A program made the position numbers and the translations under genes. From Parapristionchus giblindavisi (lineage: Eukaryota; Nematoda; Chromadorea; Rhabditida; Diplogasteridae): a DNA stretch of 64,000 nucleotides. Positions 11,434 to 57,733 of the stretch are shown here, piece after piece (within the stretch, counting starts at the first letter, position 1; each line of letters opens with the position of its first letter). The stretch lies in assembly GCA_943737045.1 (NCBI GenBank), contig CALSFV010000060.1, positions 1 through 64,000 of the forward strand, in the 5' to 3' direction. The notes beneath the pieces were generated by a model. It had not been told where the DNA came from. It worked only from the letters and a program-made list of their open reading frames with translations, and made no database searches.

Positions 11434-13173
11434 TTAGAGGCCAATAGTTCCAGCTACAATGAGCTTATCATCACCAGTAACTCTGTTAGCTCTAATAAGA
11501 TCGGTCTTCTCAACTTCAGCTGATACACTCGAAACTGGATACGAGTCTCTGTTAGCGGTGAAGCCACAGACGGGCTCGAATTGTCCGAACTGCTTCACGT
11601 TGGCAGCATTCCAGTTTCCGAAGGCGCGGAAATCAGCGAAAGTCGCGGGAGTCTCGCCTCCGACTCCCGATCCGTAGACGTTCCAGTACCACAGCATGAC
11701 ATCGGTACCGAGACCGCCGGCGTTGTTGGTAATCTGCTGCCAATCGTAAGAGTTGGTGTAAATTCCGGCACGGACTCCGCGGGCCTGAAAATATTTTCCG
11801 GTTAGTTGACATGATTTTTTAATCGATAAGGGCGTGAGCAAAAGACCAAGAGAAGAGTCTGGACTGATAGGAGTGGGAGTAAACAGATAAGACGGATGAT
11901 AAGACATTGTGTAAGCACGGAAAGGAATAATTACAGGCTTACACCAAGCTAATTTGAAACTCTCCGCTCTGATAATGCTCTCTCGCTTTCTTTATCTACG
12001 ATATATTATGGCTAGAGAGAAAAGTTTCAAATTGCATGTGTGCATTTTACAATTAGTTTGACTGGTGGATTGCATATCAGCAATGCTAATTGAACAATGT
12101 ACGATAAATATTCATAATTAATGCTAGATTAAGTATATATTTTTGGTATGAGATAGGCTAAAACATCAATATTCCGTGATTTGAAAAACTCACGCGAGTA
12201 CGCTGAATGGCGAGGTTGATGAAAGCGAGATTGTTCTTTTGGTTGCTGGGCCAGTTGACTGGAGACGTGGCCTTAAAGAATTATTCATAATGTACATTGA
12301 ATTACTTTGTGGTCTAGCGGTCAGCCAAACTCTACATTACAATGCATTTATTTTTTGAATTTAAAAAAACAATGAATCTTTGCAGTCATTATCATAGTCA
12401 GAGTCAATTTTCAATTGTTAATTGTCATTGTCATTGTCATTACCTGAATCCATAGTGATCTCACTGACACTCCTCCATTCTGGAGGGCGTTGAGTACTTC
12501 ATCGACTTGCTTATCGGCCTTCTTCGATGAGGAGGGGTTGGGCGTCATGTAAACCTCGATTCCGAGACCGGCTGGAAAAGAATTAATATAGTGCTAATGG
12601 TACCGACGGTTCTACTTTGGTACAATTTCCTCTTTTCGGATACAAACATCATTAGTCCGAGATGTCTACCCCCACCTTTCTTGCCACACTTTTTAAACAA
12701 AGAATGCTATGAAATATCTTAGCAATTTCTAGCCAACGAGATCCTTTGACCAAAAATGAATTGTCACCTTGGTAAGCCAGATTGACGTTGGGCACGGCAT
12801 TGGTATCGACGGCTCCGGTTCCATTGGAAACGTATGCACGGATGAAGGTGGTCGCGTATCCACTTGATCTCACACACGAGAAGGCTGAGGAGGAACCCAA
12901 TTGATTGATGTCAATGGCATAGCCATATTTTTGCTGAAAATGGAACAGTTACATCCGACAAAAGGTTGAAAGTTACACCCCCCCCCCCCCATTTGAAACT
13001 CTCCGGCCACACTTTCTCACTTTCTTTGTCTACTAAAGAGTGTGGCCAGATCGGATAGTCAAATTCGCTTGGTGTTTGACTTTAACATCCAAGGAAGCAT
13101 AGTTGATACCGATGAATTATCTTACCGCCGCGGTAGTAGAGGCGAGAGCCGCGAATACGAGAAAAGAGAGCAT
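11434..13173 (-). CDS. GH25-type lysozyme (nematode LYS family), copy 1
   Basis: There are five exons on the minus strand (13126-13173, 12768-12933, 12444-12571, 12194-12271, 11434-11784); phases join to 256 residues. MLSFLVFAALASTTAA is a signal peptide. The mature protein opens KYGYAIDINQLGSSSAFSC, the GH25 strand with the conserved Asp. It continues with GIEVYMTPNPSSSKK, SVRSLWIQATSPVNWP and GVRAGIYTNSYDWQQI, then VMLWYWNVYGSG, typical of the C. elegans lys proteins. Expected role: a secreted intestinal muramidase that digests bacterial peptidoglycan for feeding and defence. Exon lengths match the second copy at 31.4 kb nearly base for base. A paired GATA site and TATA box lie just upstream. 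Confidence 0.93.
11938..12040. mobile_element. Palindromic MITE, TTAA family (copy 4)
   Basis: It reads AGCTAATTTGAAACTCTCCG at one end and AAAAGTTTCAAATT at the other. It is in intron 4 of lysozyme 1. Confidence 0.7.
12985..13072. mobile_element. Palindromic MITE, TTAA family (copy 5)
   Basis: It contains ATTTGAAACTCTCCGGCCAC and GTGGCCAGATCGGATAG. It is in intron 1 of lysozyme 1, next to a C run. Confidence 0.7.
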
Positions 13174-35552: not shown

Positions 35553-35624
35553 GGGGGCATAGCTCAGGGGTAGAGCGCTCGCTTCGCATGCGAGAGGTCT
35601 GGGGTTCAATTCCCCATGCCTCCA
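35553..35624 (+). tRNA. tRNA-Ala (anticodon CGC), copy 6
   Basis: It has the standard 72-nt sequence, 470 bp upstream of the first member of the three-gene ectodomain family. Confidence 0.95.
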
Positions 35625-36091: not shown

Positions 36092-39000
36092 ATGAAAACG
36101 ATCTTTCTTCTCATTTTTCTTCCCAAAATCTTCTCCAATTCGTTGAGAAGCGCCGATGAAAATGTCGACATTACAAAGTAGGTTGTAGTTTGATCAAGAG
36201 CATATTTTGCTTGAATTTAGTTTGATCTTTAATCATTCCAGTCCTGCTTGGGATCGCTCTATGAACGAATTCGCCCGACGTCGCCTTTTCGTCGAACTAA
36301 TCGATACTATCTCGTGAGTTCAGTCTAGAGAGACCAAAGATCAAAGATCAACTTGAGGCTGAAAGCCCCCTTGGCGCATGAGATCATCAATATCGACATC
36401 AATCGAGGATCGAATGACACGCAATATTCCGACTTTATCAGCAGAGTCAATGAACTCTACCAGTGTGTGACAGGTGGTTATCATTTCACTAACTTTTTTA
36501 CATTATTGTGTCAACTGATTTCAAATAGCAAAACATTATGTTGTGAACTGGTAGCAACACAATTAAGTAAATAAATAATTTAACTCACAAAAGTGATATG
36601 TATGCACGGTTTTACTATAGTTTGTAACAATACTACTATTAATTCACGGCGGTTCAATGAAGAGAAATCCCTACATTTAACTTTGGCTTGAAGGCTCTTG
36701 CATTACGAAAAATCGGCAAAGTTGATTTGCACTGGGCGGGATTCGAACCTACGAGGTTCGGATCGCTAAACAAAAGCTCTATCCACTAAGCCATCTCGGC
36801 ATGTCTTGCGAATCGTAAAACTCGATGATAGGTCTAGTCAGAAGCGAGCGCCCAGATATACCGTAATCAACTTTCGCGCTGGGAGAACCTAGATGTTTTA
36901 CTGCTTATCATCACTCAGTTTGCGATACTTTCTTTCTCAGGCAAGAGCTTCTTAGTTACTATCATTGAGCCGCCGTGTAATTTAACGTGCTTCATGGTGT
37001 TGATGAATATGAAATGTCTCTTCCAGAAGCCGTCGATCCAGGAATGTCACATTACAACTTCACTGTGTACGTGATTCGTTCTTTAGCTGTTTTGTGTTTC
37101 CTTGTTCCACATATATTTGTAGTTTGATCTTTGATCTGTTCATGCGATCTTTGTAGCGATAACGAAACTGCTATATCGCTAAAAAACGAGAACGATGGAT
37201 ATTTGTTGAAGAGAATTGTTCGATTGACCGGGATGGAGTTTGATAAGGTTAGGGATTCAATAGAAATACCATAGTTCACTTCATCACCTTTTGGACAGGA
37301 CACGGAACGGTAACACCATTGTCACCGCATTTTCAGTAATGACTCAAATTCAAATTCACTTAGCATATCAGACTTAAAGCGAGAGTGACCTCACTCAATG
37401 GCCTCTTCATTGTGCACACTCTTTCTCTGTTCTCTAACAACGAGAGAGCGTAGACCTTTGAAGAGGTCGTTGACAAAGGTTTCCGTCCCTTTAAGTCATA
37501 TGAGTAATACGATTAGCATCATCCATCTCTGTAGGGATTAGCCATCACTCCTGTGTTAGAGCAATGACTAGCCCCAACATAGTAGTTTCTGAACATTTCG
37601 ACTTCGATTATCAGTCATGAAATTACAGATTCATCGTCTCACCCTCTACTCTTGCTCTGTCGATATCGATAACTCTATCGTAAGTTTAGTGTAAGACTCA
37701 CTGATTTATTATACTGGTGATGGACAGATCGCATGAGAACAGTTGTTCATCGTCAAACTTGTATTACATTTTAGCTTCGCTTGCAAACGATCGAAGAGGG
37801 TACTGAGCTGAAGTTCGGATGGATTGTCGAGGTGGGCACAATTTAATTATCTGTCCCGAGCTATTTTGAATCTCCGCTCTGGCAATGCTCTATCGCTATC
37901 TTTGTTGTTGTCGAGAGTCGTCGAGAGTTTGTCGAGAGCGCTTTGCCAGAGCGGTAAGTAAAATTTTCGAGGGGAGGGTGTACCCTTACAGGGAGCGTTA
38001 CCTCACTCAATGGTCTCTTCATTGCGCACACTATTCATTTGTTCTCTAACAACAAGAAAGCATTGCGCGTCGAAGAGACCATTGACAGGGGTTACGCTCC
38101 CTTTAAATTTCGTCCCTCAGAAACTGACTCCTTATTTTACATAAGAACTGGTTTTTTCGGACATTCATTATTACTTCTCACATCGATAACAATAAAGGGT
38201 TTGGAAACGAACTGAAATCGTATCATTTTTAGCGCAAATCATTGGGTCGTTTCATCGACAAGCCCAATCTCGTCTTTCAAACCGTCCAATTCCACACAAA
38301 CTTCACGTATATCGATGGAAATCGAGGAAAGAACGTCGATGTCAGAAAGGGATACGATAAGAATGGAGTGAGTCTATGTAAATTGTCGTATTTTTTTATC
38401 GAAAAAATAATGATGATCTCTTAATTATTTTTTGAGAGAGAACTTGGGCCAGCAAGTATCTAATTGGCATGTTGTTTAATACATTATCCCATAATCAGAC
38501 TCTTGAGTGAATTTGATTACAACCTTCAAAAATCTGCACATCTATGCAAATACGCTATATATTGGAATTCTATTACTGTAGAATCGGAGAAATGAGTAAT
38601 CTTCATTTGGCAGATATGTAAATGTTGTAGATCTTAAGTGAGACCAGTGTGATAATAAAGAAAAGAAAGGTTGAGTATGCTTTATTCGGACACGTTTCAT
38701 GAATCGATGATCACCTTATTGAAAATAATAACCGTTACTGAATTTGCACTGTTTTCCTCATTCAGAATATCGTTTGGACTCCAACCAATCGTCCTACATT
38801 CTCTATCGACAGACACTATTCCCTCCTTATCCCGCAAGAGCTTCGCCATAATTTTGTCCATTCGACTCCCACCGCCAACGGGATATTGATCGCTACGACG
38901 AGTACGGTGAGGTGACATTACAGTATGTTATGGTTACGGTAAGATTGGGCAATTTGAGAAAAAATCGCCATTTCTTGTAGGTACTGTCGATAAGGACACG

Positions 39001-40497
39001 TTCTGGGGATATTAGATATCCTCTAAGTAGCAGACATGTTTACGTCCAATGTCTACATAATGAGATGTGAGTGAATTGAACACAACGAGCTAATTTGGCT
39101 CCCCCCCCCCCTCTGGCTACACTCTCTCGCAGACATAGTAAGCAAGAGAGATCAGAGGGGAGATTAAATTTAGCTTCGGGAGTCTTTTTAAATGATCTCA
39201 CAATTCGGAAATGAACTACGTCATATTGCTCGATTCTTCGTCATAACACCTCACAAATATCCCTTTGAAACGAATTGTATTTCAGAATCCTCATCGGCGA
39301 CGAATCCATCCCGTGCATGGGAGGTGATGCTCGCGTCGTCGAACAATTGACACCATCATCGACTACGTCATCTTCATCGTCAGCCAAGGATTCCGATGAG
39401 ATCGATACGAGTACGGTAGTGACCAAAATACATCATGAAGTGAGCATTTTTCATGAATTATCAACAATATTTCACATGCAATCCGCGCAGTCTCTCAAAT
39501 TATTGTTTAATTGTTTGTAGCATTAGAGTGCGAATCGCAAGCCATTAACCATTAACCATTAAGTCCATTAACTTAGTGCAATCTACCTAGGCTTGATATT
39601 TTAGGTGCAACGGGAAACCGCCAAGGCGATAACAGCGATCAAAGTTGTTCCTCGTGACAATATACAATCGGTCAGTAATTGTAACTGAAAGTTTATATTT
39701 CCTTTGCGTATAATTATTGGGCATTATCACATTAAACCACAATCGAAAGCAGTTCAATAGCTTTTTTATTTCCGTGGTTTTACTTTCTATTTATGTTCTC
39801 TATAACAGAATGATTCACTGATAGGGGATTTATGAGTGATAAGTATGATCTGAATTTTGATTAAAAAGTGATTGGATAATATAATTTCAGCCAGATTCCA
39901 TCCTTTCGAGCTCATCTTTGTGGATAGTCATGGCCAGTGCCCTTGTCCTCGGATGTTTCGTCAATGCTATCAAGGTCCTATTCTTTCTTTATTTATTTCC
40001 ATCACAAGTAATGTGAGAGAACAGTTATGTAAAAATCATGGGTTGATGGAGGTCCGTCGCGTTGTCGGAGAACCGGGAAATCGGGAATGGGGCATGCGGA
40101 ATTATAAATCACGAAGATGTGGGGACAAGAGAGGCGATTCATGTTATGTTTCATACGGAATACATTTGTCTTATTGCCCATGAAAGTGTTAATATCTTTC
40201 AAGTCTTTTGTGCATAATTTTCTATTTCATAATTCTTAATATGCATTTCTATTTCATAACATATAATTTTCAGCTGTGGGGTGGTCGATCGAGGCGAGAT
40301 CAGTCAGATAATGAGAGGATCATCGTTGTGAAGTTGGGCGAGCCACCGAGAATCAAGACAAGGGGCGGAGATGGTATCTATTTTATTTTATTCAGTTCTA
40401 ACAATAAAATATATTTTTGATTTTCCTCATTTCAGAAGACTTGAAGACGGTCAGCTACGATGAAATCCCGAAGAGTGAGCTGTCAACACTATTGTAG
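36092..40497 (+). CDS. Type I membrane protein, four-cysteine ectodomain family, member 1
   Basis: Fifteen exons: 36092-36177, 36242-36313, 36358-36473, 37027-37066, 37157-37247, 37629-37679, 37775-37831, 38233-38367, 38766-38906, 38981-39066, 39286-39439, 39605-39670, 39891-39974, 40274-40373, 40436-40497; 446 residues, all phases consistent. TTTCAGG precedes the ATG. MKTIFLLIFLPKIFSNS is the signal peptide. Cysteines in LYQCVTG, LYSCSVD, YVQCLHN and IPCMGG align with those of the two paralogues. A Ser/Thr-rich stalk precedes LWIVMASALVLGCFVNAI (membrane), then a basic tail ending KSELSTLL. Member 3 has the same exon count. I do not recognise the domain. Confidence 0.9.
36650..36812 (-). repeat. 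tRNA-derived SINE-like element, family B, copy 1
   Basis: The minus strand has GAGATGGCTTAGTGGATAGA (A-box-like) and GTAGGTTCGAATCCCG (B-box-like), followed by a tail shared with 47027-47190, including CATTTAACTTTGGCTTGAAG. The acceptor arms do not pair. It is in intron 3 of family member 1. Confidence 0.75.
37376..37499. mobile_element. TTAA-flanked palindromic MITE, second family (copy 1)
   Basis: It opens TTAAAGCGAGAGTGACCTCA and ends CGTCCCTTTAA; CACTCAATGGCCTCTTC is partly mirrored by GAAGAGGTCGTTGAC. It is intronic. Confidence 0.65.
37853..37980. mobile_element. Palindromic MITE, TTAA family (copy 11)
   Basis: It contains CGAGCTATTTTGAATCTCCG and GCCAGAGCGG, with an internal GTCGAGAGT triplication. 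It is intronic in family member 1. Confidence 0.65.
37988..38107. mobile_element. TTAA-flanked palindromic MITE, second family (copy 2)
   Basis: GGGAGCGTTACCTCACTCAA is inverted as GGGGTTACGCTCCCTTTAA at the right. It adjoins the previous MITE. Confidence 0.65.
39084..39192. mobile_element. Palindromic MITE, TTAA family (copy 12, with C run)
   Basis: It contains GAGCTAATTTGGCTCCCC, then CTCTGGCTACACTCTCTCGC, and ends AGCTTCGGGAGTC. It is intronic in family member 1. Confidence 0.6.
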
Positions 40498-41073: not shown

Positions 41074-44000
41074 TTAGAAATTAAGTATATTAAACATAAT
41101 ATGGGAGTTGTTACTGATCTTCGCTTCAGAGAAGTGAGTGACGGTTTCGGCCGACTGGAAATGGGCATAAATTTCAATTAAAATAGTGTTCTCGTTGTAG
41201 TTCAATTTTATTGCAAATAGTGTAGATCTGTTTTACTCTAATTTCAGAAGAATTTGTTGTAGGAGAAGAGAAAAGAACGAAAACATATTACCACAATATA
41301 CTATAATATAATATAAATAATCATAAAATATAGAATAAAATAAAATTATACCTGAGGAACTAGTGGTTCAATGTACAGCTCACTGCTTTCATCGACCATC
41401 TCCCATTCCGAAGGATCGACGACCTAGAAAGCGAATATATTTACACAGACAACCTAACGGGACATTACAACCTTTAATTCATATATCCAAGCAAAAAGAA
41501 ATAAATAAATAATTTTTTTCTCGCTTTATTTATCATCTTAATTTTGAATCTCATCCGCAAATCACTACATACATAACGTCATAGTTGGAAATGGTTTCTT
41601 AACATATCGAATAAACGCTGCTGAAATACCTGTTGAATCTCAGGGTTCTTTAGTCCTCCATCACACATTACGGTATCGTTGTCGATGTGAATTCTGAATT
41701 TTGTAGTCATTTTAATGTCTTAAAATATTTTTCCATTCCATCGTACTGCGAGGCACGATATTAGAGAAAAGTGCTGCATTTTCTCTCTATCGAATTCGTA
41801 TAATAATATTGTTTTCAAAACACTATTTATCAATATTAGATAAACAGTATTCATAATAGGGTGTTCTTCTTTCTTTAGTAATTCTTCCTTCATCCCTTAA
41901 CGTATAGAGAACAACAAGCTTTTTTTTTGCGTCACGTTTTCGCGAACACCGTTGAAGCTAGCGACCTGCGGTTTGCGGCATTAGATTCAGCATCGGCGAA
42001 TTAAGAAAACTTTCGGACAACTTTTTGAAAAAATGCCTAAAACTCATTTAATTATCGATTGAAGCGTTAAACGGTCAAATGCCCTTATTTCCGAGATTAT
42101 AGCTTTAAGCTTGTGTTTTTCTGCGTACGTTTACCAATTAGCATACGGGGAACACGATGCGAACAACCTCCGATCGCAATTTCATCGATTTACGCCTTAA
42201 TTTTGCACTTAAACATTTTACACGCGACGCGTCGCACACGCGTCGCGTGTGCTCGCTTCATTCGAAAGAAAGCCAATTCAATCGTGGGGTTTAGTGCTAA
42301 ATTCTTATTTCATTTCTTCATTCATAGTATTCATATCATCACTATACCTTCAGGCTATCCCTGGATGGGGGCCATTACTATAATATAGTATTATCCCATA
42401 TGTATAGAAGTTAAATAGCGTTTTTATTCACGTCACGTTTTCACGAACACCGTTGAAGTTAGAGCCATGCGGTTTGCGGAATTAGATTCAGCATAGGCGA
42501 ATTAGGTAAACTTTCGGACAACTTTTTGAAAAAATGCCTAAAACTCATTTAAATATCGATTGAAGTGTTAAACGGTCAAATGCCCTTATTTCCGAGATTA
42601 TAGCTTTATGCTTGTGTTTTTCTGCGTAGGTTTACCAAATGACATACGGAGAACACGATGCGAACAACCTCCGACCACGCTCACATCGTTAAGACGTGCA
42701 AATTAGGCACAAACGAAAGCGTGTTCATTCATTTGACCTAACGAACCACTCATGACCTAACGAACCACTCACTGCACCACGCGTTGCGTATGGGTCAGCG
42801 TCGCTTTCGAAATCTTTCACTAAACATTTCGTAGCTTTATGAATTGTGCTTTCGCGTTTCATTTAACGTTTTACGATTCATTAATTCTGATAGTTCATCT
42901 TATCTATGTATGCATCAGCGTGCGTGACTTTCGAAATCTTAGCTTTAGTTCCTTTGATACTACTCTGATACTACTATTGATACGTGATACTACTCTGGTG
43001 TTTAAATCCTTGCATGATCACGAATAGAAGTATAATCATGCATGATTCGACATTCCATGCATGATCATGCATGGAATATCCGTGGTTCGTGATCATGCAT
43101 GGATCTTCCGTGTTCATGCACGAATTTTCCGTGGTCATGCATGGAATGACAGAATCCATGCATGATCTCGGATAATCCATGCATGATTCGAGTATATTCC
43201 ATGCATGATCATGCCATTAATTGCACGAATTTTACTTGGATCATGCAAGGATTCAAACACCTGAGTATATTTGTCTACTTAAAGATTCTATCGATTCAGT
43301 TACCACTCACACTTAGCAAAGTTCATTTAGTTAAGGTAGTGTTAGCGTTAGTTCTCGTGACACTATATTGATCTACTTATACATTCTATTGATACAGTTA
43401 CTATTCATTTAGTTAAGGTATTCTTAGCATAATCTTAGCAACTTTCCATATATATAGAAGTTCATAAGCCTTTTTTGGGGCAGCTCAGTCCTCAGCTACC
43501 ACTGAAGATAGACCATGCGGTTTTCGGCATTAGCTTCAGCATAGGCGAATTAGGTAAACTATCGGACAACTTTTTGAAAAAATCCTACAACTCATTTAAA
43601 TATCGATTGAAGTTACAAACGTTCAAATGTCCTTTTTTCCGAGATTATAGCTTTATGCTTGTGTTTTTCTGCATAGGTTTACCAAACGGCATAAGGAGAA
43701 CACGATGCGAACAACCTCCAACCACGCTTACATCGTTAAGGCTTCCAAATTAGCTAAAAACGAAAGCGAGTTCATTAATTTGGCCTAACTAACCACTCAC
43801 TGCGTTGCGTATGCGTCAGCGCGTTTCACTTTCGAAATCTTTTCCTAAAAATTTCGTCCAATTATGAATTGTGCTGTCGCGTTTCATTTAACGTTTTACA
43901 ATTCATGATTCTGATAGTTCATCTTATCTACGTACGCGTCAACGTGCGTGACTTTCGAAATCTTAGCGTTAGTTCTACCATACAGGGTGCGTGATAATTA

Positions 44001-47000
44001 CTTGGACTCGAACTGTTATCTGTATCTCCCCTTAGAACGCGAGTTGAGCAACCAGTCTAATACCATTATTTATTCAATTCATTAGCAACAAAAGTATGTC
44101 ATTGGATTTCGATATGCCCCCTTTTCGCGTTAATACAAGCCCGTAGGAACTTCTCGAAGGCGTTTTACGGAGGTAGTTGTCGTTGAGTTTGCTCCATGCT
44201 CGGAGGGAAGCCGACTTCAGGCTTGCCAGAGTCCAGTACTTGGTAGTAAAGATCTTGCTCTCCAGAACCCCCGGCACTGAGGTTCAGGGGATTCAAGTCA
44301 GGTGAGATGGGGTCATTCCTTGGGAGTGATGTTTCATTCCTTAGGAGTGATGTTGTCGGGAATGTTCTCACCAAACCCCTTGGTCTTGGCTTTGGCTGTT
44401 TCCTCCGCCCTGCTGCTGAGTCCAAAAGCTCCGACAGAAGTGAGAGTTGATCCAGGGGAAGATTGTGGCTTTCAGGATGTAATTGATTTAGTAGTTCTGG
44501 TTCATCTCCCCCTGGGCTCACATAGACTAGAGGTATCCGACCATTGGAGATGAAACCCGTAAATACCTTCCCATAGGCAGGATGCGAGGTTGACCGGTGA
44601 TGCCACCCAGTTTGGTGGATTCCTTGTCATCGTGAGTGATGATTGTGCTGTTCAGAGAATTGATCTCACAATCGAGGTTGAAGAACTTTTTACCAACAAA
44701 GGAAGCAGTGAAATGTTCGTAAATGCGACACCGGTCAAGAAGGAAAGGGTGATCGCATTATGCGTAGATTGATCAGTGTTGGGAAATATCGATTAGCTGT
44801 GAGTGGACACATACGTGGGCAGGCATTGCCGCTGGAAATGAAAACCGGGGGGTCGGAAGCAAAAAATGGAGAATTTATACGTCATTTTGAGATTTTTTTT
44901 TGGAAAATCGGGGGTCGGGTGCCAAAAATCAGGGGTGTATTGCCGCTAGCGGCAGTGGTGCCCACGTATGAGTGGACAACCGGATGCAATCGAGTCCAAG
45001 TAATTTTCACGCACCCTGTACATACTTAGCAAAGTTTCTTTAGTTAAGGTTGTCTTCGCGTTAGTTCCCGTGATGCTATATTGATCTATAGATACTTATA
45101 CTTAATGATTCTATCGATTCAGTTACCATTCATACTTAGCAATGTTTCTTTAGTTAACTCAGGTGTTTGAATCCATGCATGATTCAAGTAAAATGCGTGC
45201 AATTAATGGCATGATCATGCATGGAAAATACTTGAATCATGCATTGATTATCCGTGATCATGCATGGATTTCAACACCATAGTAAGGTAGTCTTAGCGTT
45301 AGTTCCCGTGACACTATATTGATCTACTTAAATATTCTATCGATTCAGTTACCATTCACACGTAGCAAAAGTTCCTATTTAAGGTAATGTTAGGGTTAGT
45401 TCCTGTGATGCTATATTGATCTACTTAACGATTCTATCGATTGAGTTACCATTCATACTTAGCAATGTTTCTTTAGTTAAGGTAGTCTTAGCGTTAGTTC
45501 CCGTGATACTACATTGGTATACTTATTCATTCTATCGATTCAGTTACCATTCAGACGTAGCAAAGTTCCTATTTAAGGTAATCTTAGCGTTAGTTCCCGT
45601 GATACTATATTGATCTACAGGGTGCGCCATAATTACCCGGACTGTTGTCTTCATATGAATCTCCCCTTGGAAATGTGACCTGAGTGATATGGTTCAAGGT
45701 AAAGCTTACCAAGAATATGGGTAGCACTAATGTACTAACGAATCTCGTTGTGGTCTCTTTTAACCCTGACACAGGCCTTGAGTCTCTTCTCATATGCGAC
45801 TGCCTATTCCCGCGAGCAATTGTCATTGAGTTCGTCCCATGCCTTGAGAAGGGGAGCCTTGAGGGAGTCGAGGGTCTGGTGCTTGGTAGAGGACATCTTG
45901 GCCTACCACTCCTCCAAACACTTCAGTCGAGGAGGTTGAGATCGGGGGAATTAGGAAGCCATTCAGTGTGATGAATTTAGCCGAGTTCATTTGAAAAAAC
46001 CACGACTGGGTGAACTTTTTCATGTGATTGACGACAGAATCTTACTGAAAGATCTAGCGGTCATGATCGAAGTGGGTATGGTATCGGAGTAAAAGCGCGT
46101 CTTGGAGGATGTGCTTGGTATAATACGCCTTATTGATCTAGATGCATGGAGTGGCAAAAATGAGAGTGGACTTTCAAGTTGGGCAAACAGCAGCTAAAAC
46201 CTTGGCTTATTGTGGATGATTGATATTAACCATGACCCCCGCTCTCTTATAGGATTCTTCAGGATCAGAGGTAATTATTCTGATGTTCTTGATATTCAGG
46301 TTGCTTTCGAAGGTAAGATATTCTTATCGCTGAACCATAGGTGGGCACGTTTGGGGAAAGGCTATGCGCAAACCGGGGAAGGGTAAGGCAAGGCTGTGCG
46401 CATGGCTATTTTTTGACGAATTCGACTGGAAATTGTCCGATTTTCGCGAGGCAAGGCTATGCGCAAGTCCCCCATGAGAAGACAAGGCTCTGCGCAAAAA
46501 ATATTCGTTTTCGCTGCGCCCACCTATGCGCTGAACATCGTTCTGAAATGCGCGGACCTGGCGCAACGCTGAAACAGTTGAGGGTGCCGTTCTCAGCTGT
46601 GCTTGATCTGCCGTTCATTCGGTTCATACAGTTTACGATACTTGCAACGGGGAAGAGTCAGCAGAGACTTGAGAAGATGACGAACGGAAGTGTTCGAGAT
46701 ATCGAGAGTCGCGATGCTCCTCTTGCGCTTTCGAAACACAATCTTTCGGGTAGTAGCGGAGGAAACTGAGATCGGTCTACCTCTGTCCGGACGTTCCTCG
46801 TTAGTACCAAGATTTTGATACCTGATACCGGTATCGCATACATCCGACTCGTGAACGCCGAGCTGATGAACGATGTCATTTTGTTGTTGTACACTTGAGA
46901 ACATTTTGTTCTTGTACACTTGAGAAGTCGTTGTCGATATGACTTTCTCATTACTAGAAGACTTGACTAAATGACTTAAACCCTTGAATAGGCCAATGAT

Positions 47001-49967
47001 CACTCGTTATGATGCTACAATAGGGGTTGCACGGCGGTTCATTGGAGGGAAAACCCTACATTTAACTTTGGCTTGAAGCCTCCCGCACTACGAAAAATCG
47101 GCAAAGTTGTTTTGCACCGGGTGGGATTCGAACCCACGAGGTTCGGATCGCCAGACAAAAGTTCTAACCACTAAGCCATCTCGGCATGCTACATAACTCG
47201 TAGAAATCGATGATGAACGCATTTGGGGGAGGGACCGCAGCGCGTCGTTGAGCGCGTCGCGTCGCTCCCTCCCCCTACGCTAACTATTACCGTATATAAT
47301 AATGAACTTTCGTGGTAAGACATTTGTTGAACAATTTATCCTGATTTTTGAAAACTGCGAGTCGCTCTTAAATCATAATGGTGAAATCAGTCCGGGTAAT
47401 TATGGCGCGCCCTGTACATAAAGACTATATTGATTCAGTTACCATTCATACTTAACAAAGTTTCTTTAGTTAAGGTAGTCTTAGCGTTAGTTCCCGTGAT
47501 AATATATTGTTCTACTTATTCATTCTATCGATTGTCTTATGCACCGTTACATTTGCCTTACGTACTTACGCCGCAACCCCTCTCCGCCGCGTCGGACATG
47601 CGGCGGAGGGGGTTACGGCGTAGGCACGTAAGGCAAATGTAACGATGCATTAGCGTTAGGTTCCTGGACACTTTATTGATCTACATGAAGATTATATTGA
47701 TTCAGTTACCATTTATACTTAGCAAAGTTTCTTTAGTTGAGGTAGTCTTAGCGGTAGTTCCCGTGATACTATATTGTAGTTTATAATAATAGTAATATAT
47801 TTATCGCATCTTGGAGAAGAGAGAAAAGAGAACAATAAAAATACATATCACGCCTGTCACGAGAGAATCGACCTAACAATCGGAATTGAGAAAAATTACA
47901 AAACAAGTTCTCTCCAGTTTTATTCTTGTTTAGGCATGTCCTACCATCCACCAAAGTGCTATTGTGTAAATTTCATTCTGGGGCTCCCTACACCGGGTCG
48001 GTAATCCGGGAACCCAACTTTGAACTCAAATATCTCGGTTCAGGTGCGTTTCTGTGAAAAAAATGCACGGGGGAAACCCCCGCTATTTTTCCGTGCTCTA
48101 TCGATCTAAACAAACCAGAGTTCACGAAAGTGCTTCCGAACAGCGCTACACTCTAGGCCATATTACTCGAAACCTGTCGATTCGGCGCGGACGAGCCTGA
48201 AATATGTTATGTAACTTTTCGAGGGCTACAAAATGAGTGGTTTACGAAAAAATATGTTAATGCGTTCGTATGGTTCATCCCCTTGTTAATTTCCTGGAGA
48301 TTTGAAGTCATTTTCACCCAACCACAATCTCTCGTTTCACACACTCTCTCGCCAATTCTTTTCATTCCATTCTACACCACACGATCTCGAGCGCGCGGTG
48401 CGGAATGAAACATATCGTTTTCTCCCTCCTCTTCCCTGTATTTCTTTCACTCTCCGGCGAGAGTGTGTGAAACGAGAGATTGTGGGTGGCGAAAATGACT
48501 TCAAATCATCAACCATACGAACGCATTAACGTATTTTTTTCGTAAACCACTCATTTTGTAGCCCTCGAAAAGTTACATAACATATTTCAGGCTCGTCCGC
48601 GCCGAATCGACAGGTTTTGAGTTATATGGCATAGAGTGCAGCGCTGTTCGGAAGCACTTTCATGACCTCTGGTTTGTTTAGATCGATCGAGCACGGAAAA
48701 ATAGCGGGGGTTTCCCTCTGGCATTTTTTTCACAGAAATGCACCTGAACCGAGATATTTGAGTCCAAAGTTGGGCTCCCGGATGACCGACACGGTGTAGG
48801 GAGCCCCCACGTTAGTTCAATCATAAGAGAGTCTGTACAATAGCCGGGAAATAGGAATTATCTCAAAATGAATAATTGTGTACGAAATATATGGTATGGT
48901 CTACGCATACAGCGCCTATAAACAGTAGGTGTATTCAAATTGCGACAACCGGACTGGAAAAATGATCAGCGCGTAAGTTCGAAATAATGTGAGTAGAGAA
49001 GGGAGGGAAGGGTGATCGAAGCGTGGCGCATTGGTAAGATGGCCGCCTCTCCTCCCAAAGGGTACGGGTTCGAATCCCGACCGGAGATTTCACTTCATCC
49101 CTTATTGTACACTCTGAACTAACGTGCCCCAGAATGATATTTACACTATGACACTTTGGGGGATGGTAGGACATGCCAAGAGGTACCGAAAACTGATGAT
49201 AACTCATTTCATGTTTTTCGCCCCAATCCGAAAAATAGCCATTTTAGGTCGATTCTCTCGTGACAGGCGTGATATTAAGACAATTAAGATATAGATATAG
49301 ATATTAAGAAGTTGCGACGATATAGTTGAAATTACTTGATTGCAACTTTTACAGAATTTCTAAATACGTGAGGAGAGGTCGATGCTACAATAGTTAGATC
49401 TATATTGATCTACTTAAAGATTTTATCGATTTAGTTACCAATCACACTTTGCAATGTTCCTTAAGTTAAGGTAGTCTTAGCGTTAGCTCCCGTGATACTA
49501 TATTGTAGTTTATAATAATAATAATAATAATATATTTATCGCATCTTGAAGAAGAGAGAAAAGAAGTGAGAAAAGAGAACAATAAAAATACATATTAAGA
49601 CAAGAAGTTGCGACGATAGAGTTGAAATTACTGGATTGCAACTTTTACAGAATTACTAAATGCATGAGGAGAGGTCGATGCTACAATAGTTAGATCTATA
49701 TTGATCTACTTAAAGATTCTATCGATTTAGTTACCATTCACACTTAGCAATGTTCCTTTAGTTACTGTAGTCTTAGCGTTAATTCCCGTAATACTATATT
49801 GGTCTACTTAAACATCTTCCTTATCAATTGTTACATTTGCCTTACGTGTCTACGCCGTAACCCCCTCCGTCGCGTAGGACAGGCGGCGGAGGGGGTTGCG
49901 GCGTTGACACGTAAGGCAAGTGCAACAGTGCATCAGTGCATTAGCGCTAAACAATTACCATTACCAA

Positions 49968-50017
<50 letters not shown>

Positions 50018-52280
50018 GGGGGGGGGGGGGGGGGGGGGTTCGGGGGGTTTCCCCCCGATAGTCGCGCCGTTAGGCGCGGCTAGTCTTCTTATAGATAACT
50101 CGAGATAGTCTCACATGTACTCGATAAATTCATACCCTGTCAAGCCACAAGAGACATGAAAATGATTGGACGTTAACGGAATAATGGAACGGTTTGCCAC
50201 ATCTCGAGCTCGAACGATTTCCTATTATTTCGTATAAATTTTATAGCAAAAAAAGTAAAATCGTTATCGTTTTAAAAGTGAAACATTTCGACGAGCCATA
50301 TTAGCACGGTTAATTTAAGTTGAATGGATGTCATACCTTATAGGTAGTGAATACCAATATTCCTTCCTTTGTATTTTGCAGTTCCATAATAGGCGTGTCC
50401 TCATTGATTTCCTTTAAGATTTGGTCTTCAATGGAGAAGACAACTCGAGGAGAAGGAGAATATACGTCTTCCTTAATTCCACGCGAAATTTTTATTCAAT
50501 GCATTTTTTAAAAATAATAGAATTCATTTATTTTTGGCTTTTCGTTAAATTGTTCATATAATATTATTGAAATACACAGTATAAACGGAAACTCGATAAT
50601 ATGTTTTACGAAAAATCGATAATAATCTTACCCCATCAGGATTAGTCGATCTCTCCACATCGGATATATCTCCAGTCTCGTAATCGATGAATGAATAGTT
50701 TGTGTAATATTTCAATATCATGTATTGATAGTTAATGATACGAGGAAGATATGTACGCTGTAAGGATTAATGAATACGTGATATCAAGTACGAACGAGAA
50801 CGAATTATTAAAATAAGTACGCATCTTTTAGTTAAGCTCTTTCAAAACAGAAAATATACACGACAGTCTTTGCCAAAAACATTTTGGGTTAATTAATTTT
50901 CATTGTTGTTTAGATACAAATCTCTGCTTACTCTAACGATGACTCCGCTACGCTTCTTCGGTTCCTCTACATAAACTAGACGTATCTGAAAAAGTTGATC
51001 TTTGATCTTTGATCGTCGTCATTCTTACCTCTTTTGGCGTTTGCGTGTGTGTACACGCAATGATGTTTGAGATCGGGATCTATAAAACATTGATCAATAT
51101 TTTTTCATCTTTGATCTTAATAATTGACAGTCTAACCTTATTTTCTCCAATCTCTATTATATTGGCAACGATTCCTTGAAGAATTGAAGTAGTAAGGTGA
51201 ATATCTCTGAAATTTGCACTTTTTTCAAACTTATTTTAAATTATTATAGCTTTGATTTTTTTTTCAATGAGTTCAGGCAAGTGATTGAAATATTATTTTT
51301 TCAAAAATCAAACTACTAAATTTACTTACGCAGGTATGCGTAGTATTTCACCGTCGTATTCGATGTCTCCTGCAATTAATCAATGATCGCAAATGAGACA
51401 ATCAATATTTTTTTAAATCAATATTTTAATATAAATTAAACTTACTCTCTTCACACGTAATATTGAGGTGTAATGAGATTTTACTGAACAAAAAGTCGAA
51501 GAAATAATCATCAGCGGTGGCCGCTATTTCAATGGTGAAATATTTCGCCCCGAGAATCAACGTTTCACTTAAATTATTTGATAAATTGATTAAGAAATTT
51601 ATTGAAATTTATTATATTCAATTTCTGCCAAACAAATCGGTTATTTCATTTAAAAAAAACACATGTTAAAATGTTTTTAAAGGTGGTGTCCGGGCAATAT
51701 TTTCGTGAACAAACTGTGAAGACAGAAAGATAGCAAAAGTTATTCTGCATACCTTACATAAATTAGTTTATGCTAATTTAGCTTATTGATCGCTAGAATC
51801 ATGAATGAATCCATGCTTGATGTACAGGCAAAGGCGCGAAATTTTGAAAATAGGGAAGTTCAGCAATAGGTTTCGAACCCGCGACGTTACGCTTACTAGT
51901 GAACACTTTTACCACTGCGCTACGGGATTGATGAATGGTCGTGCTAATTTCTCGCATATCACTTGTCCCTTGCATAATAGATATGTTATACATTTGCATA
52001 GACATTCTATGGCCTCCATCTTTAAAGACGAAAATCATACTTCACTTCCTCAGCGACTTCCACATAGAAACGTCGATTCTCCAGTTCACGGTGAGCTTTT
52101 TCGTATCGAGTCCTGAATTAGCATCGTAATCCATGTATCTTCACTTTAATTTTATCTATTCAAAACGAGATAAAAGACTAAAAGGTACTCGAGTCCTCTT
52201 CCATGTCTCCTATTGTTTTGTAGATCTTTCGATTGAGCTACGATAGCAATGAGAAGAAGAGGAATAAACCATAGCTTCAT
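41074..52280 (-). CDS. Four-cysteine ectodomain family, member 2, lacking membrane segment and tail
   Basis: Thirteen exons on the minus strand: 52189-52280, 52041-52112, 51446-51567, 51330-51369, 51137-51206, 51029-51079, 50932-50985, 50632-50757, 50337-50471, 50136-50221, 41630-41693, 41352-41423, 41074-41154; 354 residues. Exons 2-12 equal those of member 3 base for base in length. Signal peptide MKLWFIPLLLIAIVAQS. Cysteines in NITCEES, IIACTHTQ, HVSCGLTG and VMCDGG are kept. After SAETV the last exon diverges and stops at HIMFNILNF, so the transmembrane and cytoplasmic exons of member 3 are missing; a secreted product is inferred. Intron 10 is 8.4 kb against about 210 bp in member 3. Confidence 0.88.
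42990..43268. mobile_element. MITE with expanded GATCATGCATGGA units, copy 1
   Basis: The ends ACTCTGGTGTTTAAATCC and GGATTCAAACACCTGAGT are inverted. The interior repeats CCATGCATGATCATGCATGG-type words about ten times, alternating in orientation. A shorter relative is at 45154-45285. Confidence 0.75.
43262..43440. repeat. About 100-bp minisatellite, first segment
   Basis: The unit contains TCGATTCAGTTACCATTCA, TTAGCAAAGTT, TTAGTTAAGGTAGT and CGTGAYACTATATTGATCTA. Further segments lie at 45022-45153, 45285-45615, 47417-47530, 47648-47775, 49390-49500 and 49690-49815, separated by transposons. Confidence 0.85.
43983..45018 (-). mobile_element. Tc1/mariner-like element, degraded
   Basis: Ends CAGGGTGCGTGATAATTACT and CAGGGTGCGTGAAAATTACT are inverted and flanked by TA. 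The minus strand keeps SPDLNPLNLS, then in a shifted frame SKIFTTKYWTLASLKSASLR and AWSKLNDNYLRKT, the C-terminal part of a Tc1-like transposase. Frameshifts make it inactive. Confidence 0.85.
45154..45285. mobile_element. MITE with GATCATGCATGGA units, copy 2
   Basis: ACTCAGGTGTTTGAATCC and GGATTTCAACACCATAGT form the inverted ends; the interior has three GATCATGCATGG-type words. It interrupts the minisatellite. Confidence 0.75.
45618..47414 (-). mobile_element. Tc1/mariner-like element, degraded, with a SINE inside
   Basis: Ends CAGGGTGCGCCATAATTACC and CAGGGCGCGCCATAATTACC are inverted, flanked by TA. The minus strand near 46590-47000 reads SHLVKSSS..., RGRPISVSSATTRKIVFRKR and SVRHLLKSLL, the DNA-binding N-terminus of a Tc1-like transposase. 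SPDLNLLD and AYEKRLKAC-type text near 45760-45950 is the C-terminus. Stops and shifts are present. A family B SINE is inserted at 47027-47190. Confidence 0.85.
47027..47190 (-). repeat. tRNA-derived SINE-like element, family B, copy 2
   Basis: It has the same order of words as copy 1 at 36650, with GTGGGTTCGAATCCCACC as B-box-like stem-loop. It is inserted inside the Tc1-like element. Confidence 0.75.
47528..47652. mobile_element. Palindromic MITE with GTTACATTT ends, copy 2
   Basis: GCACCGTTACATTTGCCTTA is inverted as GGCAAATGTAACGATGCAT; the arms meet around CCGCCGC. It interrupts a minisatellite unit. Confidence 0.85.
47849..49271. mobile_element. Foldback transposon, CACGCCTGTC subfamily, 4-bp target duplication
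   Basis: Ends CACGCCTGTCACGAGAGAAT are inverted and flanked by ATAT on each side (47845-47848, 49272-49275). The neighbouring repeat at about 49580-49600 shows the site without the insertion. Nearly the whole element folds back (47849-48360 with 48450-49271). The right arm carries a further insertion at 48808-49126. No transposase is visible. Confidence 0.9.
48808..49126. mobile_element. Insertion with CACGTTAGTTCA inverted ends and a tRNA-like promoter
   Basis: CACGTTAGTTCA opens and TGAACTAACGTG closes a 319-bp insert flanked by CCCC duplicated from the target. The opposite foldback arm lacks it, which fixes both boundaries. Inside, GTGGCGCATTGGTAAGATGG and GGGTTCGAATCCCGACC resemble Pol III A and B boxes. 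Confidence 0.85.
49829..49945. mobile_element. Palindromic MITE with GTTACATTT ends, copy 3
   Basis: TTGTTACATTTGCCTTACGT faces ACGTAAGGCAAGTGCAAC, with CCGTAACCCCCTCCG and its complement inside. Confidence 0.85.
49968..50037. repeat. AT dinucleotide tract followed by a G run
   Basis: About 45 bp of (AT)n is followed by an uninterrupted run of about 23 G, then CGGGGGG and CCCCCC. This is a low-complexity tract in intron 10 of member 2; sequence length here may be an assembly estimate. Confidence 0.9.
51828..51945 (-). repeat. tRNA-derived SINE-like element in intron 2 of member 2
   Basis: The minus strand has CGTAGCGCAGTGGTAAAAGT and CGCGGGTTCGAAACC as A and B box candidates, with GGCGCGAAATTTTGAAAAT at the far end as in family A. 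The acceptor arms do not pair. It is absent from the corresponding intron of member 3. Confidence 0.65.
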
Positions 52281-53504
52281 CCTGAAATCGATATTTATTC
52301 TTATGCCATATCAAAAGATTTGCATTCTGATGGAACAGAGATAGAAAGTAAAATTATTACAAGAATGCCCGGAAAAGTTGATAAAATCCAGAGAACTAGA
52401 GAACTGATATCAAATACAGAAACATGGGGATTAGGTTTCGATTTACATACTCTTATAAATAACAAAAATTTTAATCGATTTCGAGTCAAAAGGGATGATG
52501 CGATAAGGATGAACGGATAGAAGAAAGATGATATTAGTGAGGAGGGAGATAACGGAGATAAGCGCATATCATCAATAACAATCGATGGATTTCTTTCTGA
52601 TATCGTCCTTTGATCAATCGATAGTCCGATATTCCCGTTCATTACAATACAATACAATGTCCTTTACCAAGCACGGATAGGAAACGGTTCCCAATAAACG
52701 ATTGATAAGTGTGAGCGCGGAAGGAACAAGGGGGATTTTTATCTCGAATAAATCTTTTATGAGCAAGTATTGGCCCGTTAACTACACCAACTTTCATTCA
52801 AACAATACAGTCCAGCCCTGCCCTGCCTAAACGCGGTACGTTGAGCAAGATGCGTGATACCTATGCCGTCTTTCGTTTTAACAAACAATGTATATACACA
52901 TATGGTTGATCTTTGATCTTACTTAGTCTACATATAAAGAAGACCTGCACTCCCCTACCTCTTCTCCCTCCCCAATTCCTACCACCCACTTTCCCGATTC
53001 TCTTATTCACTTATTTATTCTTCGTTTCAAATGTTGTCACATATTTATTGGATGTATGATAAATAAATAAATAAATAAACATATATGGACGATATCTGCG
53101 CTTGGTAGAGAACATTGTATTGTATTGCATTGAAAGGGTATACCGGTCGATCGATTGATCAATTTGATAGAAAGAACGATATCAGATAGAAGCTCAGTGA
53201 TTGTAATATCGCTTATCTCCTCGATCTCCCAACTTCCAGCATATTTCCCCCACAATCATCTTCTTCTACTGTCCGTTCATCCTTATCATATACTTTTACT
53301 CCTGGTCATTTGACTTTTTGTTGCTTTTTTATTATTACAATAACGTCTTTCTAAATCTCCGTGTGTCTGCATTTGGTACTGGTTCTCTAGATTTTATTAT
53401 CTTTCCAGTCATTCTTATAAACAAAATTCATTTCATGTCAATTCAATCTTTATTCATTCTGATATCTTTTGACAAGAAAAATATAAATAAATATCGATTT
53501 CAGG
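52281..53504. promoter_or_regulatory. Shared divergent upstream region of members 2 and 3
   Basis: Both genes start from this 1.2-kb gap and point outward. The two halves are partly inverted copies: GCTTGGTA-AGGACATTGT at about 52640 matches GCTTGGTAGAGAACATTGT at 53102. Each start is preceded by AAATATCGATTTCAGG. The symmetry axis lies near 52700-53050. Confidence 0.7.
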
Positions 53505-56500
53505 ATGAAACCATGGTTTCTTCTTCTTATTCGCATTGCGATCGTAACTGAATCGAAGGATTTACAATACAATAGGAGAGATAAAAGGGGACTGGAGATT
53601 CCACTACAAGAAAGGTGTCTCAACTATCGAGTTTTACTCTATTTTGAAATATTTATTGGAAAATCAATGTGCAAGCAAACAAGATCAGATCAGATTGTAA
53701 GATCAGTAAAAATATGATCCAATTCAGGACTTCATACGAAAGAGCCTATCGTGAACTAGAGAATCGTCGTTTCTATGTGGAAGTCGCTGAGGAAGTCAAG
53801 TAAGTATTTTCATTCCTTTTAAAAACATTATAACAAAAGTTTTATGTACGAAATGACCCTTTTTTTTACAAATTTAAGGGATACATTGATTCTCGGGGCG
53901 AAATATTTCACCATTGAATTATCTGCCACCGATGATGACCATTTATTCGACTTCTTGTTGCGTAAAATCTCATTACACCCTTTTGTTACTTGTAAAGAGA
54001 GTAAGTTTACGTATTGATTGTCCAAATATTGATTTTTGAATGATTTTATCGATTTTATTTTACTATTCAACATGGGCTTTTGAGTTATGCTTTGCCCGGG
54101 AAAAAGAGGCAATTGGTATCCCTTGAAATCATTGATTTATTACAGGAGATATCGAATTCAACAGTGATATTCTACGCGTACCTGTGTGAGTTAAAAAATT
54201 AGACTTTTTAAAATTCAATAATTACTTAAAGTCAGTTGTTCAAATTTCAGAGATATTCACCTTACTAATTCAATTGTTCAAGGACTCGATGACAATTTAA
54301 TTGAGATTGAAGAAATTAAGGTTAGACTGTCAATTATTAAGATCAAAGATAAAAAATATTGTTCGATGTTTTCTAGATACCGATCTTCAGCATCATTGCG
54401 TGTACACACACACAAACGATTAAAAAGGTACGAACAACGAGGATCAAAGATCAACGATCAAAGATAAATATTTTCAGATTCGACTAGTTTATGTAGAGGA
54501 TCCGACGACACGTACTGGGGTCATCCTTAGAGTGAGTGATTACACCATAGATTCATGCCTATACTAGCAATTACGTGCATCGTTACATTGCTTAATGGGC
54601 CTACACCGTAACGCCGTCATTTCGCTACTTATGGGTGTATGCGTTGGGTCTCGAGTGGAAAACCATGATAAACCATGAAATAACTGCAAAAAGTTATGGT
54701 AGTCAACCATTATTTTTGGATTGTTACGGTAGCCGTATACCAATTGACCCCCCCCCCCTTGGGTTTTTCACTCGAGATCCAGCAGAATCCAAAAACTCGT
54801 TACGACGTAAGAGCAAATGGGACGCCGCAACAATAATTAAACCAAAATATTTTTGGCAATGATTGTCGTACGTGTTATGCATGAGAATTACTAAATACTC
54901 TTTCGACAATTCGTTCTCGATAGCATGGTATCTTTAATTCATTCTTACAGCGTACATATCTTCCCCGAATCATTAATAATCAATATATGATGTTGAAATA
55001 TTACACAAACTATTCATTCATCGATTACGAAACTGGAGAGATATCTGATGTGGAGAGATCGACTAATCCTGATGGAGTAAGACATATTATGGATTTTTGC
55101 CAGGATACATTACACATTGATTTCTCATTCATATGTAGTGTATATTTTCTTAATTAAACATTCAGTACTTTACGTTTCTATGGTGATATCATAAAATGAC
55201 AAAACAGAAAAATTAAACATAAGTGAGACATGATGAAAAGATGAATTTTAATGATTTTTAATCTATAAAATAATTTATTATTGGAATTAAGAAAGACGAA
55301 TATTTGCCTTCTCCTCGAGTTGTCTTCTCTATCGAAGACCAAATCATAAAGGAGATCAATGAGGACACGCCTATTATGGAGCTACAAAATACAAAGGAAG
55401 GAATATTGGCATTCACTACCTATAAGGTACGACACCCATAGAAATTAATCTTCAGTACTTTCCCATTGTGTTTAAATTTTTATTATAAGTTAATTCTAAA
55501 CTTATGACAATTTGATTTTTTTTTGTTATAAACTTTATATGAAATTATAGCAAATCGTTCGAGCTCGAGATTCGACAAACCGTTCCATTATTCCGCTAAT
55601 GTACAATCATTTTCATGTTTCTTGTGGCTTGACGGGGTATGAATTTATCGATTTTTATAAATTTAATTATTCAACTTTACGGAAATATTTTAAATCAGTA
55701 AAATGAGTCTAATATTTAGAATTCACATAGACCATAATACTATATGAATTCGATTGAGAGAAAACTCATCACTTTTCTATAATATCGTGCCTCGCAGTAC
55801 GATGGGATCGAAATATTTTAAGACATTAAAATGAGTACAATATTTAGAATTCACATCGACAAGGATACCGTAATGTGCGATGGCGGACTAGTGAACCCTA
55901 AGATTGTACAGGTATTGTCGTTTTACCCAAATGTTGAGCATATGAATGTATTAATTGGTAAATCATGTAACCAATTGTGCGTTCAATAAAGATGAACATA
56001 ATGATAATGATAACTTATTTCTTCAATTGACCGCATCTGGGAATAGGATGGATAAAATGTGCTTTTTGCCATATCGGACTCCTTCCTTCAGATAGTCGAT
56101 CCTTCGGAATGGAAGACGCTCGAAGAAAGCGGTGAAGTGTATATTCAGCCGCCAGTTCAACAGGTATATCATATTTTATTGTATAGTTACTATTATTATA
56201 TATTATATTTTCCATATTATATTATTATTACGATGTGTTCGTACTTTTCTCTTCTCATAAAACGAATCCTGTGCAAACTTGAGGAAAATTACAGATCCAC
56301 ACAGCTTATTGTTAAAATCAAATCGGATTTCCAACGATAAAAGTATTTTAATTGAAACTCCTGTCTATTTCCAGTCCGCTGAAACAGTTGCCAGTCAAAT
56401 CTCTGAAGAAAAACCCAACGAAGAACAAAATTCTAAAGAGGTGAATTATCACTTTCAAAAATTTAATTAATATCAAATAATTTAGAATCCGACTGAAATG

Positions 56501-57018
56501 TCTCAATGGAAGATCAATCTCATCATAATTCTCTGTATCGGCATAGTTCCTCTTGCATTTTACGTTGGCTGTAAGCACAAGGTACATTTTTGTTGTAATT
56601 TTTCTTTAAAAAAACCTTTCTGAAGAAATCGTTCTTTCTAATCTATGGTAGACAAGGAAAATGAGGCAGTGTCAAATGGATAGTTTCAAACATCATTGAT
56701 TTTCAGTGGTTGCCAGACTGCAAAGAGTGCTTGAACGACCTCGAGTGCCTGAAGAAAACCGATGAAGATCCGAATGTGGATAAATCGGGAAATACCGATC
56801 CGACAAAGGACACATCGATTGAGCTCACGCCGGTCTCGGCAACTGCTACGACTGAACCCGAAGCTGACGTCATTCAGGTTCAGGGTGAAACCACCCCTGA
56901 AACTCGAGCTTCTGTTGAGGCCGAACCCGAGACCGAGACAGAACCGGGACCGGCACAGGTTCAGAAGACCGACTCCGAGAAGAGCAAGAACTTCGAGGTC
57001 TCCAAGGTGGATGAGTAG
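53505..57018 (+). CDS. Type I membrane protein, four-cysteine ectodomain family, member 3
   Basis: Fifteen exons: 53505-53614, 53728-53799, 53879-54000, 54146-54185, 54251-54320, 54377-54427, 54478-54531, 54951-55076, 55292-55426, 55551-55636, 55848-55911, 56092-56163, 56375-56440, 56486-56581, 56707-57018; 491 residues in one frame. Signal peptide MKPWFLLLIRIAIVTES. The ectodomain contains FVTCKE, IIACTHTQT, HVSCGLTG and VMCDGG. INLIIILCIGIVPLAFYVG is the membrane segment, followed by CKECLNDLEC and a long Glu/Thr/Pro-rich acidic tail with alternating E-T-E-P words, likely disordered. Exon 1 reads 18 nt past the donor used by member 2, where GT has become GA. The family is unknown to me. Confidence 0.92.
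54574..54775. mobile_element. MITE-like insertion in intron 7 of member 3
   Basis: GTGCATCGTTACATTGCTTA at one side, and CTCGAGTGGAAAACC mirrored by GGGTTTTTCACTCGAG, mark a palindrome-rich insertion. The matching intron of member 2 is much shorter, so insertion or loss followed the duplication. Confidence 0.55.
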
Positions 57019-57733
57019 TCCTCTTGAGCTCAGCAATCACAATCATATAATGTTTAGTATTCTTTTTTTTCTAATAATAAACATCTTGCATACAGGAGCA
57101 TTTTAGTTTTCAAATAGAAAACAGGCAGTGCTGTCAGTGAATCTGGAGTTGCGTAATATAGCGCAATGGAGTTGACTATGAGAGCGAGGACATATCATGC
57201 AGTATTTCACTAAGTTTGGTGTTTCGGACAATCTATTAAAGGGACCTGGCATCCAGAAAATTCGATTCGAAATAGTTAAAATAGTTGACCTCATGTTGAT
57301 AAGCTTGAAAACGGGATCAGAAATATTTATTTGAAAGTTTTAAACAATATTTTGGTAAGAAGTTGAGTAATTATGAAAAGGCTCAAGCTGAATGGAGCAG
57401 ACTGTAGATTTTTAACGACACCGTTATCCTTATAATTTATGTATTTCGAAACAGAATTTAAAGATCTTTTATATGAGATCAACTTGTTTCTCGTCTCCAT
57501 GATTCTTTAACTCTTATGAACACGTTAATGTCCTTGTCGCACCGTCATTTATCGACCTCTCGTACTCAAATAATAATATCCTAATGTGGTTTGCGATAAG
57601 TACATGAATAAGTGCATATGATTATAATGTTTATCGGAACCCTGCACAAGTAGGAAAGATTACAATTGACGTAAAATATGGAGAATAAAAATACAGAGAT
57701 CAAAGATCAAAGATCAAAGATCAGTCTAAAACT

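Follow-up and report, generated by a model that had tools for sequence, protein, structure and literature searches.

A head-to-head gene pair of Parapristionchus giblindavisi in which one copy has very probably lost its membrane anchor through an internal deletion

Two neighbouring genes of the nematode Parapristionchus giblindavisi, here called M2 and M3, are head-to-head paralogues with unlike ends: M3 is predicted to carry a membrane anchor and M2 is not. How did the two copies come to differ, and is the shorter one a working soluble protein or a gene in decay? The window analysed, meaning the whole stretch of DNA considered here, comprised 64 kb from the start of contig C60 in a genome of 251 Mb and 703 contigs, and the gene models were built by hand from the sequence alone. 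Three adjoining genes of one family were recognised. M1 (36092–40497, plus strand; hand-built model and alignment) is a distant paralogue of 15 exons and 446 aa, with its transmembrane exon 13 at 39891–39974. M2 (41074–52280, minus strand) has 13 exons and 354 aa and no transmembrane exon. Its exons 1–7 lie at 52280–52189, 52112–52041, 51567–51446, 51369–51330, 51206–51137, 51079–51029 and 50985–50932, and its exons 8–13 at 50757–50632, 50471–50337, 50221–50136, 41693–41630, 41423–41352 and 41154–41074. M3 (53505–57018, plus strand), the predicted membrane-anchored paralogue, has 15 exons and 491 aa; exon 14 (56486–56581) holds the transmembrane segment, and exon 15 (56707–57018) encodes an acidic cytoplasmic tail of 103 residues and the stop codon. 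In all three genes alike the ATG was located one base past TTTCAG, which looks like a trans-splice acceptor. By tblastn at E 1, no further member of the family was found in the rest of the window or in C60:64001–184000. The window also contained eight tRNA genes on both strands (Rfam; starts at 2431, 11050, 14281, 28745, 29781, 34806, 35553 and 59583), seven of which scored alike at 67.6 bits; those at 35553 and 59583 were, by eye, apparently identical tRNA-Ala genes.

The family was compared with protein and domain databases. Pfam gave no match above cut-off for M3, the sub-cut-off scores being 15.5 bits for THOC2_N and 13.6 bits for Ski7_2nd (cut-off 27 each), and no match for M2 and M1. In PDB, no match was found at E 5 for M1 and M3 residues 1–334. 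A protein-database search, which requires shared 5-residue words and similar length, yielded 6,453 candidates for the M3 query, none of them at E 1e-3, and 7,991 scored proteins for the M1 query, none of them significant. These blank searches are meaningful because the same database gave 24 proteins, Pristionchus first, for a lysozyme of the window. The control gene (~31400–33400, minus strand, spliced by hand) was recognised as GH25 at 35.3 bits, with best named matches in Pristionchus fissidentatus, P. entomophagus, P. pacificus and P. mayeri at 72%, 69%, 65% and 64% identity, respectively, which places the source of the DNA within or close to Pristionchus. At least two GH25-type lysozyme genes were present on the minus strand of the window, at 11434–12948 and 31400–33430. 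The family of M1, M2 and M3 seems to be undescribed and without a name.

A preliminary description of this DNA had proposed an inverted duplication with exons 2–12 equal in length and close in sequence, and comparison of the two models bears this out. In both M2 and M3, exons 2–12 measured 72, 122, 40, 70, 51, 54, 126, 135, 86, 64 and 72 nt, with equal phases, and the proteins were identical at 260 of 347 aligned columns (75%; blastp E 0.0). All 12 introns of M2 and their 12 counterparts in M3 had GT...AG borders, having been selected as such when the models were built, and the frame was kept through all 12. Among the 16 inverted-repeat pairs in 38000–60000, 13 joined M2 to M3 (80–91%; I2–I6, I8–I14 and I16). 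Exon 1 differed in length by 18 nt because the GT donor of M2 is absent in M3, where the next GT is used further on, in frame; this donor shift (M3 53597–53614) amounts to six extra residues. Intron 2 of M2 (51568–52040) measured 473 bp and its M3 counterpart 79 bp, and M3 intron 10 contained at 55680–55745, by eye, a partial repeat of the exon 11 acceptor region and of the beginning of that exon. A false palindrome introduced during assembly was ruled out, as 138 of the 984 coding sites (14%) differ between the two genes, too many for such an artefact. The dS between M2 and M3 was ~0.29.

The two genes had further been described as diverging from a common 1.2-kb region, and this holds for the spacing and in part for the homology. 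Between the ATGs lie 1,224 bp (52281–53504), and ~410 bp on each side, at 52281–52690 (minus strand, M2) and 53093–53504 (plus strand, M3), are homologous to each other, with a local alignment score of 138.5 vs a maximum of 25 in 200 shuffles. The homology is confined to these outer parts; the centre of ~400 bp (52691–53092) aligned without clear homology between the sides. M1's upstream DNA showed no likeness to that of M2 or M3 (local scores 17.0 and 15.5, within the shuffle range). As a hypothesis, the homologous flanks could serve as mirrored promoters. In the first step of the history of the pair, an ancestral gene encoding a type I membrane protein would have been copied in inverted orientation, along with 410 bp or more of its upstream sequence.

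M2 and M3 are homologous over only part of their frames, namely exons 1–12 and the start of exon 13, and their ends are unlike. M2 ends at 41074 within exon 13 (41074–41154, minus strand), before the transmembrane and acidic-tail exons, as had been described; both exons are present in M3. The divergence begins at the word CTCTGAAG, placed by script at 41124–41131 (minus strand) in M2 and at 56401–56408 (plus strand) in M3 exon 13. Past this word M2 no longer resembles M3 exon 13; its match from 41120 onwards is instead the M3 3′UTR from 57027. The homologous M3 stretch (57027–57127, plus strand) covers both the coding tail and the 3′ end of M2 (blastn, 75 of 103 columns, E 1e-13). The local score of the alignment was 39.5; 1,000 dinucleotide shuffles reached no more than 18.5, and the 2,963 controls from the window no more than 20.5. 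In M3 a second word, CTCTTGAG, was located by script at 57021–57028 (plus strand) in the 3′UTR and matches the word at 56401 at six of eight bases. The two words are 620 bp apart and flank the stretch of ~0.62 kb that is missing from M2, marking its left and right ends.

Since the M2 tail can be aligned to the M3 3′UTR, its truncation is explained by a deletion. M2 also keeps DNA homologous to the M3 3′UTR beyond the gap, and therefore the whole gene was duplicated and the stretch lost later. A simple premature stop in M2 exon 13 was likewise ruled out by the homology of the tail to the M3 3′UTR. The coding end proper to M2, from ~41120 onwards, is formerly non-coding DNA by the same homology and its controls; the final ~14 residues and the stop codon are read from it. 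In the second step, M2 would have lost ~0.62 kb from the interior of exon 13 into the 3′UTR, and the transmembrane and cytoplasmic exons with it; in the third, the frame of the ectodomain would have been fused to the former 3′UTR, running on there for ~14 new residues to a stop codon. M3's AATAAA at 57076 corresponds in M2 to GATAAA, which lies one base past the stop codon, and M2's own 3′UTR may be very short.

The same alignment gap would in principle arise if the short form were ancestral and an insertion separating exon 13 from the 3′UTR had brought exons 14–15 into M3. M1 bears on the direction of change: although it is only 23–25% identical to M2 and M3, its own transmembrane exon matches that of M3 in position and phase, and it, too, encodes a cytoplasmic tail; loss in M2 is therefore the likelier direction. 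A double gain of like-placed and like-phased exons is less likely than one deletion, and we consider an ancestral short form very improbable. The layout of M1 as outgroup, taken with the homology of the M2 tail to the M3 3′UTR, thus agrees with the preliminary claim that one copy lost its anchor. We hold the structural history, comprising the inverted duplication, the deletion of ~0.62 kb and the UTR-derived tail of M2, with high confidence.

Hydropathy was calculated on the Kyte-Doolittle scale over 19 residues, and segments above 1.2 were counted. M3 had one such segment, at residues 366–384 (2.46), and M1 also had one only (2.06). In M2 the values above 1.2 were found at the N-terminus (1.34) and at residues 111–129 (1.26). 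By eye and by hydropathy the start of M2 resembles a signal peptide; the N-termini of M1 and M3 were weaker, below 1.2, and that of M3 contains an arginine. Of the four ectodomain cysteines, three shared their alignment columns across M1, M2 and M3, as did one N-glycosylation site. N-glycosylation sequons at M2 residues 55, 90, 288 and 343 were without counterpart in M3, and the one at 343 falls in the UTR-derived tail.

An anchor could be restored to M2 by a hidden or alternative 3′ exon, as exon 13 contains possible donors (e.g. TCA/GTAACA) and unspliced minus-strand frames downstream of M2 have stretches that reach 1.39–1.56, compared with 2.46 in the real M3 segment. We scanned splices from three GTs of M2 exon 13 to 28 AGs down to 40300, and no in-frame product contained a segment above 1.5. 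The DNA past M2 is moreover short and soon gives way to the end of M1, whose stop lies at 40497. The scan of the genomic sequence thus argues against a hidden membrane exon downstream, in line with the preliminary description, whose counter-scenario was continued splicing of M2 into a membrane segment, and we regard such an exon as highly unlikely. By hydropathy and the downstream splice scan, then, M2 is predicted to be without a membrane anchor, and its ectodomain is homologous to that of the membrane paralogue M3. The best-supported reading is that M3 and M1 are membrane proteins and M2 a soluble version of the ectodomain.

Intron 10 of M2 (50135–41694) measured 8,442 bp, and its M3 counterpart 211 bp. 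Most of this length was taken up by a Helitron-like insertion of 8,191 bp (41893–50083, plus strand), without which the intron would measure ~250 bp. The insertion starts with TC, ends in CTAG after a GC-rich hairpin and sits in an A/T target, which was present at all three copies compared for both flanks; we take the TC start, the hairpin with a CTRR end and the A/T target to be the signs of a Helitron. Autonomous Helitron copies are marked by a Rep/helicase protein, and the present copy may be non-autonomous. Copies on contigs C8 (~711.0–719.4 kb) and C278 (~477.7–486.9 kb) were 99.58% and 99.75% identical to it over 7.9 kb, and the insertion is therefore recent. An older copy of the element, ~96% identical, was located at C278:161–173 kb, and tblastn recovered no M1–M3 exons in 80 kb around the C8, C278 and older copies. 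The element carries other repeats, among them 273-bp inverted arms (47980–48252 and 48535–48807) and transposase-like frames, and two of the frames in intron 10 look to us like mariner transposase relics. Pfam returned nothing for the three intron 10 frames searched, a weak test in that a lysozyme fragment run alongside also gave nothing. That intron 10 harbours a host gene was ruled out, as its longer open frames sit in sequence also present on other contigs.

The insertion raises the possibility that M2 is a recently failing gene, which first lost its anchor and was then hit by a transposon, its open frame reflecting only how recent its death is. The recent growth of intron 10 to 8.4 kb, against 211 bp in M3, would fit such a course, as would the reading of M3's AATAAA as GATAAA in M2. 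The insertion is intronic, however, and leaves both splice sites intact, and the M2 frame is open with all 12 introns GT-AG. Simulated neutral drift along a branch of 0.145 per site left the frame with a mean of 4.8 stops; with indels assumed to arise at 0.1 per substitution, it also left a mean of 11.5 frameshifts, and not one of 2,000 runs escaped both. Over exons 1–12 the dN/dS between M2 and M3 was 0.42 (bootstrap 0.29–0.63), which is weak evidence alone because a neutral M2 beside a constrained M3 gave values no higher than 0.42 in 8, 24 or 57% of simulations, depending on the setting (150 runs each). Exons 8–9 had a dN/dS of 0.15, with 8.5 non-synonymous changes compared with ~27 expected if M2 were neutral (P 2e-5). 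Outside these exons the 78 changes, compared with 74–87 expected, fit a neutral M2, in keeping with a failing gene. When residues were polarised by M1, 11 were derived in M2 and 12 in M3, 61 of the 84 differing columns being uninformative on direction; a neutral M2 predicts that at least 71% of derived residues lie in M2, and the observed split, without excess in M2, had a P of 0.014 or less. M2 accordingly looks constrained, most clearly in exons 8–9, and this constraint may in part be older than the deletion. With strong constraint in exons 8–9 and no surplus of derived residues in M2, we consider a gene in recent failure unlikely.

Taken as a whole, duplication, deletion and retention of M2 by selection as a soluble secreted ectodomain form the best explanation of the locus, to which we give a probability of roughly 70%. 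In the last step of this history, M2 would have been retained by selection acting at least on its central ectodomain (exons 8–9), most likely as a soluble secreted ectodomain. Considered singly, the proposal that M2 is a soluble, secreted form of the ectodomain appears quite probable. What such a protein would do is a separate matter. The preliminary description cast M2 as a presumed decoy, in which case it would compete for a ligand or partner that M3 (or M1) also uses; as such, a role as decoy or competitor of M3 is possible but doubtful. An independent secreted role, or a pairing of M2 with M3, is at least as likely as competition, and we give it somewhat less than an even chance. The 25% divergence of the two ectodomains and the sequons at 55, 90, 288 and in the new tail of M2, absent from M3, would favour a job of its own, and a ligand common to M2 and M3 is itself only a hypothesis. 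The most conserved part, exons 8–9, is on the other hand shared and constrained, which would fit a shared partner too. In its fullest form the decoy proposal would describe a Pristionchus-lineage membrane receptor family, lacking recognised relatives, with a genomically fixed soluble antagonist encoded head to head with the receptor. The C-terminus of the antagonist would derive from the receptor gene's 3′UTR, and, the upstream DNA being duplicated in both, the ratio of anchored to free ectodomain would be set by two mirrored, separately tunable promoters; this is an improbable model.

The literature on soluble paralogues that arise by transmembrane loss, on inverted or chimeric nematode duplicates and on Pristionchus orphan genes provided analogies only. 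Soluble decoy receptors with genes of their own exist, such as human DcR3, and ligand binding has been demonstrated for them. M2 resembles these decoys as a predicted anchorless, ectodomain-like protein beside a membrane paralogue, and differs from them in that its ligand is hypothetical. Horse CEACAM1 has secreted paralogues (PMC5856374), and there, too, duplicates of a membrane receptor are secreted once the transmembrane part is out of use. They differ from M2 as vertebrate immunoglobulin-type receptors that become secreted via stop codons, alternative splicing or absent exons; a sequence relation of M2 to horse CEACAM1 is not expected.

Closer parallels are found in nematodes. One study describes fog-2 and ftr-1 of Caenorhabditis elegans as a partial duplication in which the 3′ end of fog-2 was recruited from non-coding DNA (PMC3449122). 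Like M2, fog-2 is, on that account, a nematode duplicate with an altered 3′ end whose last coding part comes from non-coding DNA. Unlike M2, it drew its end from a new neighbourhood, whereas the M2 end would derive from its own 3′UTR via an internal deletion that removed the anchor. M2 resembles a partial duplicate in effect, and in origin reflects a later deletion rather than an incomplete duplication as in fog-2. Pairs of adjacent inverted copies are described as common among newborn nematode duplicates (PMC2728529), and the young pairs of C. elegans are, like M2 and M3, adjacent, inverted and structurally different from each other; they are newborn, whereas the dS given above places M2 and M3 at ~0.29. 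Pristionchus orphan genes include genes of mixed origin (PMC6643871). They share with M1–M3 the lack of recognised relatives, and some were built from formerly non-coding DNA; M1–M3 differ from them as a multi-exon membrane family in which a non-coding origin applies only to ~14 residues of M2.

Nematodes thus already offer examples of adjacent duplicates in inverted orientation and of recruited 3′ ends, and M2 is a combination of known kinds; that it draws on its own 3′UTR following an internal deletion is a neat detail and not a new kind. Its value lies in being a readable case, outgroup paralogue included, of a membrane protein that would have turned soluble in one step, along a route in which an internal deletion couples the coding sequence to the gene's own 3′UTR and yields a short tail and a stop. 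If it is true that M2 is secreted and competes with M3, the pair would provide a genetically accessible nematode system for the origin of decoys.
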